The notes under the pieces are model-generated. The model was not told the origin of the DNA and searched no databases. It saw only the letters and a program-made list of their open reading frames with translations. This document shows positions 29,360 through 33,731 of a DNA stretch of 64,000 bases, piece by piece (position 1 is the first letter of the stretch; each line of letters opens with the position of its first letter). Both the position numbers and the translations under genes were made by a program. This DNA is from Anaerolineae bacterium (GTDB taxonomy: Bacteria; Chloroflexota; Anaerolineae; J036; Brachytrichaceae), in contig CANJQH010000005.1 in assembly GCA_947476335.1 (NCBI GenBank), forward strand, positions 1-64,000. The letters are read 5' to 3'.

Positions 29360-29432
29360 AGCTACCTACGGGAGTTGAACCCGAAACCTATCGCTTACGA
29401 AGCGATTGCTCTACCGATTGAGCTAAGGTAGC
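29360..29432 (-). tRNA. tRNA-Thr (anticodon CGT)
   Basis: Cloverleaf on the minus strand. The acceptor arm is GCTACCT with AGGTAGC, the D-stem GCTC/GAGC, the anticodon stem ATCGC/GCGAT with loop TTCGTAA (anticodon CGT, reading ACG), and the T-arm GGG-TTCAACT-CCC. The discriminator is U and the CCA is not encoded. It is single, not in a tRNA cluster. Confidence 0.95.
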
Positions 29433-29589: not shown

Positions 29590-29618
29590 TTGACACATTT
29601 CCCTCCCTCCGTTAGTAT
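29590..29618 (+). promoter_or_regulatory. Sigma-70 promoter of the aro operon
   Basis: The -35 TTGACA (29590-29595), a 17-bp spacer and the -10 TAGTAT (29613-29618) predict a start near 29625, about 14 bases before the leader ATG. The 157 bases between the tRNA and this promoter contain no recognised gene; 29480-29565 may hold a decayed inverted repeat. Confidence 0.85.
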
Positions 29619-29638
29619 CCACACTCGTGGGTTTGAAC

Positions 29639-29728
29639 ATGTGCTTGTACGCAGGCTACCGCTATTATGGCTACTTTAGCAAGGCTAAAGAGAGCTTACT
29701 CGTGCGCGTATTCAGCACGGCAGGATAG
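29639..29728 (+). CDS. Tyr-rich attenuation leader peptide of the aro operon
   Basis: A 29-codon ORF lies directly after the promoter and before an intrinsic terminator. Residues 4-13 are YAGYRYYGYF: five Tyr codons and a Phe codon within ten codons, far above expectation. Downstream genes make chorismate, DAHP and prephenate-derived Tyr/Phe precursors. The SD is weak (GTGGG), and an in-frame GTG at 29627 could give a nearly leaderless start. The peptide itself probably has no function; ribosome stalling at the Tyr codons would be the sensing event. Confidence 0.82.
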   Translation: MCLYAGYRYYGYFSKAKESLLVRVFSTAG

Positions 29729-29752
29729 ACGGAACGAAACGAACATCCTACA

Positions 29753-29788
29753 GGGCGCGGAGCACAGTAAGCTCTGCGCCCTTTTTTT
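29753..29788 (+). terminator. Attenuator terminator upstream of aroH
   Basis: An 11-bp stem (29753-29763 with 29771-29781, one G-U) has a 7-base loop and seven T residues. Bases 29766-29775 (AGTAAGCTCT) are the exact complement of 29691-29700 (AGAGCTTACT) in the leader, giving an antiterminator that excludes the terminator. TTTAGC/GCTAAA (29675-29680, 29684-29689) and CGTGC/GCACG (29701-29705, 29715-29719) are further leader hairpins. Confidence 0.88.
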
Positions 29789-29829
29789 GTGTCACGGCCG
29801 TTTCAATACAGCAGGAGGAGTAAATTGAT

Positions 29830-30198
29830 ATGTGGATGCGAGGTGTCAGAGGCGCGACTTGCGCCACAGCCAACAGCAAAGAAGCCATCATCGAAACAAC
29901 GAAACAAATGCTGCAGCGCATTATTGTTGAGAACGACATGCAGCCGGACGAAATCGCCAGCGCATTTTTCTCGACCACGCGCGACCTAAATGCCGAATTC
30001 CCGGCCATCGCTGCACGCCAGCTCGGGTGGACCGATGTGCCGCTCATGTGTATGCACGAAATGGAGGTTCCCGGCGCCTTGCCTCAATGTGTGCGAGTGA
30101 TGGTGCACTGGAACACTGACAAACGGCCGAACCAGATTCGACACATCTATATCAACGGCGCCGAAAAGCTGCGCCCTGACCTGGTGCGCGAAGGCTGA
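29830..30198 (+). CDS. aroH: Chorismate mutase, AroH class
   Basis: Trimeric AroH-type chorismate mutase, converting chorismate to prephenate. At 122 residues it matches the Bacillus AroH length. Characteristic segments are MRGVRGATCATANS (Arg near the N-terminus), ATTRDLNAEFPA-like STTRDLNAEFPAIAAR, VPLMCMHEMEVPGALPQCVRVMV and the late RHIYINGAEKLRPDL. The SD AGGAGG (29813-29818) is strong. It is the first gene after the attenuator and so the first to respond to it. Confidence 0.94.
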   Translation: MWMRGVRGATCATANSKEAIIETTKQMLQRIIVENDMQPDEIASAFFSTTRDLNAEFPAIAARQLGWTDVPLMCMHEMEVPGALPQCVRVMVHWNTDKRPNQIRHIYINGAEKLRPDLVREG

Positions 30199-30290: not shown

Positions 30291-31373
30291 ATGTCCTTCA
30301 AAACCGACGACGTGCGCATTCGCGAAATCAAGGAGCTTGCTCCGCCCGCGCATCTGATGCGCGAATTCCCACTTTCCAACGACGCATCCAGGGTTGTATA
30401 CAACGCTCGCGAGGCGATCCACGGCATCCTGCACGGAAACGACGACCGTATGTTCGTCGTCGTCGGCCCATGCAGCATTCACGACACCCGTGCCGCACTC
30501 GAATACGCCGACCGCCTCAAGCTGCTGGCGGACCAGCTGACGAACGACCTCGTAATCATCATGCGCGTGTATTTTGAAAAGCCGCGCACGACGGTCGGCT
30601 GGAAAGGCCTGATCAACGACCCATATCTGGACGGCTCGTTTCGCATCAACGAAGGCCTGCGCATCGCGCGCGAGCTGCTGCTGGAGATCAACTCGCTTGG
30701 CCTGCCGGCGGCAACGGAATATCTCGACACAATTTCTCCACAGTACATCGCTGATTTGATCGCATGGGGCGCCATTGGCGCGCGCACAACCGAATCGCAG
30801 GTGCACCGCGAACTCGCCAGCGGGCTATCCTGCCCCGTCGGGTTCAAAAATGGCACGGATGGCAACATCAAAATCGCTTCAGACGCAATGATGGCCAGCC
30901 GCATGCCGCACCATTTTCTGTCAGTCACGAAAAGCGGCGTGAGCGCCATCGTTTCGACGGCGGGAAATCCGGATTGCCATGTGGTGTTGCGCGGTGGAAA
31001 AGATCCGAATTACGACGCCGCCAGCGTGCGCGCAGCAACGCAGTTCCTCATCAGCGTCGGGCTGAATCCGCGCCTGATGATCGACGCCTCACATGGCAAC
31101 AGCAGCAAAAAACACGAGAACCAGATCCCGGTTTCCGAAGACATCGCCCGGCAGGTCGAACGCGGCGAACACAACATCGCCGGCGTCATGATCGAGTCGA
31201 ACCTGCTGGCCGGCCGCCAGGATATCGTCGCCGGCAAACCGCTGGAGTATGGCAAAAGCGTGACCGACGCGTGCATCGGCTGGGATGACACGGTGCAGCT
31301 GCTGACGCGCCTGGCCAAAGCCGTGCGCAATCGCCGCGGCATCACCGAAAAGCCGGCGACGGCTGCAGTCTGA
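30291..31373 (+). CDS. aroG: 3-deoxy-7-phosphoheptulonate (DAHP) synthase, class I alpha
   Basis: Condenses phosphoenolpyruvate and erythrose 4-phosphate, the entry step to the shikimate pathway. The 360-residue protein follows the E. coli AroF/G/H pattern: DDVRIREIKELAPP, VVGPCSIHDTRAALEYA, FEKPRTTVGWKGLINDP, SHGNSSKKHENQ. AroF, AroG and AroH paralogues of E. coli differ in feedback inhibitor; which amino acid inhibits this enzyme cannot be read from the sequence. It starts 92 bases after aroH and 5 bases before tyrA. Confidence 0.93.
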   Translation: MSFKTDDVRIREIKELAPPAHLMREFPLSNDASRVVYNAREAIHGILHGNDDRMFVVVGPCSIHDTRAALEYADRLKLLADQLTNDLVIIMRVYFEKPRTTVGWKGLINDPYLDGSFRINEGLRIARELLLEINSLGLPAATEYLDTISPQYIADLIAWGAIGARTTESQVHRELASGLSCPVGFKNGTDGNIKIASDAMMASRMPHHFLSVTKSGVSAIVSTAGNPDCHVVLRGGKDPNYDAASVRAATQFLISVGLNPRLMIDASHGNSSKKHENQIPVSEDIARQVERGEHNIAGVMIESNLLAGRQDIVAGKPLEYGKSVTDACIGWDDTVQLLTRLAKAVRNRRGITEKPATAAV

Positions 31374-31378
31374 ATCCG

Positions 31379-32266
31379 ATGACGAACGAAAATTCCGCAC
31401 CAGACAGCGCACCCGCGCGCACAATCTGCATTGTCGGCATCGGGCTGATGGGCGCTTCCTTTGCCCTGGCGCTCAAAGCACGCGGCTACAACGGGCGAAT
31501 CACTGGCGTTTCGCGCAGCACCGCCACGCGTGACAAAGCGTTGCAGCGCAGCGTCGTCGATTTCGCCACGACCGATCTGGCCGAGGGCGTGCGCGACGCG
31601 GACGTAATTGTGCTGTGCACCCCCGTGCGGCTGCTCGTGGAACAAATCGCTGCAGTTGGCGCACTCTGCCGGCCGGGTGCAATCATCACCGACATGGGCA
31701 GCACAAAGAGCAACGTCATCGCCGCCATGAACGCGCTGCCCGCGCACGTGCGTGCGATCGGTTCACATCCAATGTGCGGCAAAGAAACCGCCGGCATCGA
31801 CGTGGCCGAACCCGGCCTGTACGAAAACGCGCCATGGATTCTGACACGCAGCGCGCGCACCGACGATGAAGCATTCGCCGTCATACAAGCACTCGCCGTG
31901 CTCGTTGGCGCGCGGCCGCGCGAAATTGATGTGACGCAACATGATGCACTGCTCGCCCACGCCAGCCATCTTCCGTGGGCAGTGTCGACCGCGATGGTCT
32001 ACACCACCGACCATTTTGCTGTCGACCATCCAGCGGTCTGGCAAGTGACCGCGGGCGGCTACCGCGACACCAGCCGCGTCGCTGCAAGCGACGTCACGAT
32101 GTGGACGGACATCGCACTGACCAATCAGTCCGCCATCCTCGCGGCCATTCGAGATTTTCAGTTTAGCCTTGATCAGCTGGCCGTGCTGATCGAACGCGGC
32201 GACGAGGCGGGCCTGCGCTCATTCATCGAACGTGCAGCAGTGGCAAGAAAAGCGAAATACGGGTGA
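31379..32266 (+). CDS. tyrA: Prephenate dehydrogenase
   Basis: Oxidises prephenate to 4-hydroxyphenylpyruvate, the committed step to tyrosine. The 295-residue protein has NAD-binding VGIGLMGASFALAL near residue 20, SHPMCGKETAG and the helical C-terminal dimerisation domain with HASHLPWAVSTAMV and GGYRDTSRVA. No ACT domain is present, so classical Tyr feedback by that domain is unlikely, which fits control at transcription by the Tyr-rich leader. Confidence 0.92.
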   Translation: MTNENSAPDSAPARTICIVGIGLMGASFALALKARGYNGRITGVSRSTATRDKALQRSVVDFATTDLAEGVRDADVIVLCTPVRLLVEQIAAVGALCRPGAIITDMGSTKSNVIAAMNALPAHVRAIGSHPMCGKETAGIDVAEPGLYENAPWILTRSARTDDEAFAVIQALAVLVGARPREIDVTQHDALLAHASHLPWAVSTAMVYTTDHFAVDHPAVWQVTAGGYRDTSRVAASDVTMWTDIALTNQSAILAAIRDFQFSLDQLAVLIERGDEAGLRSFIERAAVARKAKYG

Positions 32267-32420: not shown

Positions 32421-33731
32421 ATGGACAAAACCCTCTCCCGAATCCGCGCACTACAAGGTGTATTGCGCGTGCCGAGCGACCGCAGCATCACCGTGCGCGC
32501 GACGTTGCTCGGCGCCGTGGCCGACGGCGTCAGCCGTGTGCGCGAGCCGCTCGATTCCGATGACACCAATGCTGCGCTGGACTGCCTTGCTGGCCTCGGC
32601 ATAGCGGTGGCAAATCTTTCGAGCATGTGCGATCCGCTTGGATTGCGCATTCCTGGACTTGGGCTACGCGGGCTGCGCGCGCCACGCGAGACGCTGCACT
32701 GCGGTTCGTCAGGCGCAACAATGCGACTGCTGGCGGGCCTGCTGAGCGGGCAGCATTTCGATAGCACGCTCGATGGCAGCGAACAGCTGCGGCGGCGGCC
32801 GATGCGGCGCGTTACGGATCCGCTGGCGGTGATGGGCGCGCACATCGACAGCATTGACGGCAAAGCACCGCTTGCCATTCACGCAGCGTCGTCACTGCAT
32901 GCGCTCGACTACGTCATGCCCGTAGCGAGTGCGCAGGTGAAATCGTCGATCTTGCTGGCGGGTTTGTACGCCGACGGCCCGGTGACGGTGCACGAGCCAG
33001 CACCGACGCGCGATCACACCGAGATCATGTTGCGCGCAATGGGCGCAGACATACGCACAGAGCGCAACGCTGACGGCAGTGCGGCGGTGACTTTGACGCC
33101 GCCGACGCGTCTGCGGCCGCTCGACATGCTGGTGCCAGCGGATATTTCGTCAGCGGCATTTTTTCTTGTTGCAGCGGCGCTGTTGCCCGAATCAAAGCTG
33201 ACGTTGGTGGAGGTGGGGGTGAACGAAACCCGCACCGGCCTGCTGGACGCGATGCGGCAGATGGGGGTGCAGATTGAACAGCGCAACACGCGCACCGAAG
33301 CGGGCGAACCGATTGCTGACCTGGTGGTGCACAGCGGCGAGCTGCACGCAATTGAAATTGGTGGCGCGCTGGTGGCGCGCATGATCGATGAACTGCCGAT
33401 TTTCGCCGTGCTGGCGACGCAGGCGCACGGCCGCACTGTAGTTCGCGATGCACAAGAGCTGCGTGTGAAGGAAAGCAACCGCGTCGAAGGGCTCGTGGCG
33501 CAACTGCGCGCGATGGGCGCACAAATTGAAGCAACGATGGATGGCTTTGTCATCAACGGCCCCACCCCGTTGTTGGGCGCAACCGTCGACGGTTTGGGCG
33601 ACCATCGTATGGCGATGTCGCTGGCGGTAGCTGCGCTGGCGGCACAAGGCGACACGTGCATTACGGGTGCGGAGTGCGTAAGCAAGACATACCCGGAGTT
33701 CTGGCGTGACTTGGATCGCGTTATGTTTTAA
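32421..33731 (+). CDS. aroA: 3-phosphoshikimate 1-carboxyvinyltransferase (EPSP synthase)
   Basis: Transfers the enolpyruvyl group of PEP to shikimate 3-phosphate. The 436-residue protein has LHCGSSGATMRLLAG (residues near 92-106), ASAQVKSSILLAGL, PADISSAAFFLVAAALLP, RVKESNRVEGLVAQL and GDHRMAMSLAVAAL, all family signatures. The KESNR form replaces the more common KESDR. The start lies 17 bases after the family A element. The stop codon is the first base of a bidirectional terminator hairpin. Confidence 0.95.
   Translation: MDKTLSRIRALQGVLRVPSDRSITVRATLLGAVADGVSRVREPLDSDDTNAALDCLAGLGIAVANLSSMCDPLGLRIPGLGLRGLRAPRETLHCGSSGATMRLLAGLLSGQHFDSTLDGSEQLRRRPMRRVTDPLAVMGAHIDSIDGKAPLAIHAASSLHALDYVMPVASAQVKSSILLAGLYADGPVTVHEPAPTRDHTEIMLRAMGADIRTERNADGSAAVTLTPPTRLRPLDMLVPADISSAAFFLVAAALLPESKLTLVEVGVNETRTGLLDAMRQMGVQIEQRNTRTEAGEPIADLVVHSGELHAIEIGGALVARMIDELPIFAVLATQAHGRTVVRDAQELRVKESNRVEGLVAQLRAMGAQIEATMDGFVINGPTPLLGATVDGLGDHRMAMSLAVAALAAQGDTCITGAECVSKTYPEFWRDLDRVMF

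Follow-up and report, generated by a model that had tools for sequence, protein, structure and literature searches.

A predicted aromatic leader peptide and transcription attenuator upstream of aroH in Anaerolineae and Chloroflexia

The trp and pheA leaders of Gammaproteobacteria combine a leader peptide rich in codons for the product amino acid with mutually exclusive 1:2, 2:3 and 3:4 helices and an intrinsic terminator in front of the biosynthetic genes. Leaderless poly-Cys attenuator ORFs, whose peptide is translated from an mRNA that practically lacks a 5′ UTR, were reportedly described in mycobacteria by Canestrari et al. in 2020. In the ilvB-II attenuator of Corynebacterium, an upstream ORF carries the control codons, and the antiterminator arises when an upstream loop pairs with one strand of the terminator stem (PMC10272879). 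A survey of 2010 stated that leader-peptide systems had so far been recognized in Proteobacteria and Actinobacteria alone and added Firmicutes (PMC2965389), where his attenuators, a case of leader-peptide attenuation outside Proteobacteria, were predicted by comparative genomics (PMC9413887, PMC2965389).

The locus described here resembles each of these systems in the respects just named. It lies on the forward strand of a stretch of 64,000 nucleotides (the whole of the DNA analysed, hereafter the window) from a genome close to Candidatus Roseilinea, phylum Chloroflexota. Unlike the trp and pheA leaders, the system has no Rfam relation, a mixed Tyr/Phe/Trp run, a leader that in Anaerolineae is almost without 5′ UTR, and aroH–DAHP synthase as its target; furthermore, its antiterminator takes the terminator loop and the tops of both arms, whereas the textbook 2:3 helix of trp and pheA takes the 5′ arm. 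The mycobacterial attenuators differ in their Cys codons and their phylum. The Corynebacterium attenuator differs in concerning branched-chain amino acids, in belonging to Actinobacteria and in its sequence (PMC10272879), and those of Firmicutes differ in their His codons and their phylum (PMC9413887, PMC2965389). No covariance model of the Rfam 15 leader families (trp, Phe, His, Thr and Leu leaders, and others) matched. No report of a leader-peptide attenuator in Chloroflexota was found in the literature searched; Lopatovskaya et al. 2010, reportedly a wide survey of attenuators, may hold an earlier prediction.

We predict that the locus is a ribosome-mediated attenuator which senses charged Tyr and Phe tRNAs and controls aroH–DAHP synthase–tyrA–aroA, and we assign this reading a probability of about 0.87. 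As a predicted attenuator of the Trp/Phe type, the locus combines every sequence-testable hallmark of classical ribosome-mediated transcription attenuation. What would set it apart are an antiterminator that grips the terminator at its apex and a 5′ UTR that is short or missing. The transcribed region is arranged as follows.

29590–29618, forward strand: promoter, TTGACA and TAGTAT separated by 17 nt
29639–29728, forward strand: leader peptide ORF MCLYAGYRYYGYFSKAKESLLVRVFSTAG; relatives have a short aromatic-rich ORF at the equivalent position
29648–29677, forward strand: control codons, Tyr at 29648, 29657, 29663, 29666 and 29672, Phe at 29675
29813–29818, forward strand: Shine-Dalgarno sequence AGGAGG of aroH, recognized from the sequence
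29830–30198, forward strand: aroH-type chorismate mutase (CM_1), which opens the operon
30291–31373, forward strand: DAHP synthase (DAHP_synth_1)
31379–32266, forward strand: tyrA, prephenate dehydrogenase
32421–33731, forward strand: aroA, EPSP synthase

The short leader ORF thus holds a run of five Tyr codons and one Phe codon, and the genes of the operon (chorismate mutase, DAHP synthase, prephenate dehydrogenase, EPSP synthase) produce the amino acid predicted to be sensed. The Phe codon (TTT, 29675–29677) directly follows the last Tyr codon, which the first-pass annotation had correctly placed at 29672–29674; the arm of the antiterminator therefore starts 13 bases after the last aromatic codon of the run, which is the Phe codon. 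In the same genome, a simple ORF scan of approximately 800 nt upstream of pheA and of each of two chorismate-binding enzymes revealed no further attenuators. A tRNA-Thr gene (CGT; 29360–29432, reverse strand) is located divergently, just 5′ of the attenuator promoter.

A near-perfect TTGACN-17-TANNNT box is found directly 5′ of the leader ORF in nearly all relatives. The distance from the −10 box to the ATG is 9–11 nt in most Anaerolineae, 12–18 nt in most members of the window's family and about 32–43 nt in Chloroflexia. The window has a longer spacing of 20 nt between −10 box and ATG, but an alternative in-frame GTG start at 29627 is 8 nt past the box. Among 24 Anaerolineae and family members counted, a Shine-Dalgarno core precedes none of the leader ORFs versus 21 of the 24 aroH genes. 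Judging from predicted start sites, the 5′ UTR ahead of the translated leaders of Anaerolineae and of the family is probably a few bases long. With starts so nearly leaderless, one may ask how ribosomes manage to load in time on a leader that has no Shine-Dalgarno sequence.

Between the promoter and aroH, the RNA can form three helices, like the trp leader; the first of them was absent from the first-pass annotation.

29669–29696, forward strand: P1, the 1:2 hairpin, pairing 29669–29672 with 29693–29696 and 29674–29680 with 29684–29690, based on folding and covariation
29691–29705, forward strand: antiterminator 5′ arm, comprising 29691–29700, the bulge C29701 and 29702–29705
29762–29775, forward strand: antiterminator 3′ arm, comprising 29766–29775 and 29762–29765, which make up the loop of the terminator and the apical part of each of its arms
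29752–29788, forward strand: intrinsic terminator, stem 29752–29763/29771–29782, loop 29764–29770, U tract 29782–29788

The terminator, a strong one, and its tract of seven T therefore lie between the leader ORF and the first gene. The complementarity of 10 bp reported earlier was confirmed: AGAGCTTACT (29691–29700) and AGTAAGCTCT (29766–29775) are exact complements with 65 bases between them, and the downstream segment indeed consists of the loop bases 29766–29770 and, at the start of the 3′ arm, the five bases 29771–29775. The claimed mutual exclusivity holds as well, since this pairing is unable to form with the terminator (29752–29782) closed. In folding, the antiterminator is longer than previously described, with four additional pairs (29702–29705/29762–29765) beyond the one-base bulge C29701.

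A terminator/antiterminator pair 5′ of an amino acid operon could also belong to a T-box that binds tRNA, or to a riboswitch for a metabolite, in which case the short ORF would be a by-product, and tyrosine genes in other bacteria are under T-box control (PMC1262725). However, a search of the window and 19 related loci against Rfam 15 matched only a tRNA and an unrelated FMN riboswitch. The aptamer, specifier codon and T-box sequence of such an element were not found, no Rfam T-box model matching even at E-values up to 10, and the conserved elements are the ORF of aromatic codons and the overlapping helices, with no separate aptamer domain. We consider a T-box or riboswitch highly improbable.

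The perfect helix is rare by chance at its particular place. In 2000 dinucleotide shuffles of the leader, a perfect leader–terminator helix of at least 10 bp arose nine times, and in 2000 such shuffles of 29678–29751 four times. Inverted repeats of 10 bp anywhere in a 230-nt tile are less rare, being present in 30 of 637 tiles of the window (about 5%), and the weight therefore rests on the location of the helix and on comparative evidence. For the latter, the arms of 17 leaders of the window's family were aligned without gaps, since MAFFT alignments, given mixed loop lengths, put the 5′ arm of the terminator out of register. Rows were picked by the presence of the conserved arm, a selection that leans towards structure, so that the slid and shuffled controls weigh more than the raw percentages. 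In these 17 leaders the ten pairs of the antiterminator were formed in 88.8% of cells versus 26–50% in slid controls, and five of the ten pairs were changed on both sides, which was reached in none of 500 shuffles. The check on homologous leaders thus turned up compensating changes, and the antiterminator that excludes the terminator is conserved by covariation. For instance, the leader UUACU and loop AGUAA of the window correspond to UUAUU and AAUAA in one relative (L009), AGAGC and GCUCU to GGAGC and GCUCC in another (L007), and in a third (L183) the leader UUGCCG pairs with CGGCAA. In several relatives, the outer positions of the antiterminator do not pair.

Across 61 leaders of Chloroflexota, the mean match between a leader and its own terminator was 25.27 versus 19.94 after permutation (sd 0.56, maximum of 2000 permutations 21.67), a difference whose size overstates independence as the set contains related sequences. 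As in the window, many of the helices in this set reach across the terminator from its 5′ arm through the loop into its 3′ arm. In Chloroflexia alone, the loop part was paired in 81 of 110 cells versus a permuted value of 78.4 (maximum 83); the arms vary too little in this class for covariation within it alone to say anything. A constitutive terminator accompanied by a chance inverted repeat, without any regulation, would agree with the frequency of 10-bp repeats in the window's tiles, but the compensating changes, the phylum-wide conservation and the occurrence as a single copy per genome at the same operon speak against it, and of all readings we hold this to be the least probable, with a negligible chance of being correct.

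P1 (GGCU-A-CUUUAGC-AAG-GCUAAAG-AG-AGCU) overlaps the control codons and competes with the antiterminator, as does the 1:2 hairpin of classical attenuators: its 5′ side spans the last Tyr and the Phe codon, and bases 29691–29696 are common to both helices. Its pairs are formed in 93% of cells, and three of eleven are changed on both sides (11 double-change cells), again reached in none of 500 shuffles. The first-pass annotation had a different competing state in mind, namely a ribosome at the stop codon masking the upstream arm. The footprint of a ribosome is usually about 30 nt. When the A site holds the stop codon (29726), it would extend from approximately 29708 to 29738, which is 3′ of 29691–29700, and the proposed masking was not borne out. 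The companion claim that the upstream arm lies outside a stalled ribosome stood up, as the arm begins 12–27 nt after the last aromatic codon. An otherwise identical attenuator, in which masking at the stop codon instead of P1 blocks the antiterminator, would fit Chloroflexia and most other Anaerolineae, where the end of the stop codon is merely 2–16 nt (about 9) past the antiterminator arm and hence inside the footprint; in these groups direct masking may contribute alongside P1. For the window and its family, however, this variant is unlikely, given the 23–40 nt from the end of the arm to the end of the stop codon and the strong conservation and covariation of P1. P1 is the better candidate for the competing state in the window, because it shares 29691–29696 with the antiterminator and covaries.

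The behavior of growing transcripts was approximated by equilibrium folds of truncated transcripts, not by kinetic simulation. Hiding the RNA 5′ of 29685, as would a ribosome whose A site holds the Tyr codon at 29672, gave the antiterminator a probability of 0.95–1.0 for transcript ends from 29771 to 29779, before the terminator took over at 29781. A ribosome stalled on the Tyr codons thus favors the antiterminator in these folds, as had been proposed. In the free leader, P1 persisted to 29771, the antiterminator was short-lived and the terminator prevailed at 29779. With everything up to 29738 hidden, the terminator formed from 29775 onward. Without a ribosome, the fold still visits the antiterminator briefly (29773–29777), so P1 does not block it completely. 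At equilibrium the completed terminator outcompetes the antiterminator (−39.0 versus −31.9 kcal/mol), and the switch must therefore be kinetic. In these models, the four additional pairs could let the antiterminator nucleate on the loop and the upper 5′ arm while the 3′ arm has yet to be transcribed.

The sequences themselves show the helices, their exclusivity, their covariation and their conservation. In the mechanism that we infer from them, including its stalling, its coupling, its start sites, the direction of regulation and the most important tRNA, transcription would start near 29625 and a ribosome would soon initiate the leader peptide. Upon shortage of Tyr- or Phe-tRNA, this ribosome would stall on 29648–29677 and hide the 5′ arm of P1; the freed bases 29691–29705 would pair with 29762–29775 while RNA polymerase passes the terminator loop, keeping the top of the terminator open and allowing the polymerase to read through. 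When charged tRNA is plentiful, the ribosome would run through, and either P1 would re-form or the transiting ribosome would cover the arm. The antiterminator would then lose, and the terminator would stop transcription before aroH.

Relatives were located by AroH searches, which yielded 80 loci in genomes with names and, of 400 Chloroflexota genomes sampled, 222 with matches; this wider set was found through the protein and goes beyond the reach of the covariance model mentioned below. An aromatic leader ORF, defined as a short ORF with at least five aromatic residues in eight, precedes aroH in almost every sampled member of Chloroflexia and in the majority of the sampled Anaerolineae. At further Chloroflexota loci, it was found in 23 of 60 cases (0 of 60 on the opposite strand). 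Examples are FSFSYFWFYGYFAAGKGSLLPR (Ca. Roseilinea mizusawaensis), NTFYGYFYYFTELHTARSLRT (Oscillochloris) and MLKSARWFAYFYFYGFRNSAAVGGA (another family of Anaerolineae). Such a leader is absent in sampled Planctomycetota, Dehalococcoidia and the other sampled families of Chloroflexota. Family genomes without aroH retain it, 5′ of DAHP synthase. A covariance model of the family leader (R1) detected one site per genome in 11 of 199 genomes of the class, all from the window's family, and had no matches outside this family among the 199.

The aromatic runs of relatives mix F and Y, with some W, and that of the window has Tyr and Phe; the sensing of Tyr alone proposed by the first-pass annotation was accordingly abandoned. 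The composition of the run also bears on a nascent-peptide arrest leader, in which the peptide itself and not a shortage of charged tRNA stalls the ribosome. The peptide is partly conserved within clades (e.g., SLL.R, or WFAYFYFYGF...VGGA in Anaerolineae), but F, Y and W interchange freely in the run, and the conservation of the C-terminus is explained by the RNA pairing encoded there. Peptide arrest is therefore very unlikely, and we retain the sensing of charged tRNAs.

Going by the sequences compared, the predicted attenuator is conserved across two classes, Anaerolineae and Chloroflexia. Whether these leaders form one old, undescribed family that reads all aromatic tRNAs simultaneously, with an apex-gripping antiterminator and an essentially leaderless start in Anaerolineae, we regard as an even bet. 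The system would offer a testable case of coupled transcription–translation control of aromatic synthesis in Chloroflexota, including Chloroflexus-like and Roseiflexus-like phototrophs, and the covarying pair of P1 and antiterminator would allow attenuation to be tested cleanly beyond Proteobacteria, Actinobacteria and Firmicutes.

Several single loci deserve mention. In some Anaerolineae-like operons (L076, L052, L041, L079) pheA follows aroH, so the sensing of Phe would be direct there. One locus of Chloroflexia (L117) has kept the aromatic leader while the 5′ arm and loop of the terminator are missing (GATAGACGCCCTCTCTG); it may be unregulated, or the repeat may have collapsed in assembly. 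A metagenome-assembled genome labelled only "bacterium" (LB3_1; L033) has the aromatic leader HRAFSFGYFYFTERSKLL 5′ of aroH together with a terminator-like hairpin, a possible occurrence outside the sampled classes. Finally, at a threshold of 1e-6 the DAHP synthase of the window does not match its counterparts in this operon of close relatives; most of these relatives carry two copies of apparently another subtype (L010:5500–7638; L076:6534–8793). Both types exist in other members of the window's family, and the difference looks like loss or replacement.
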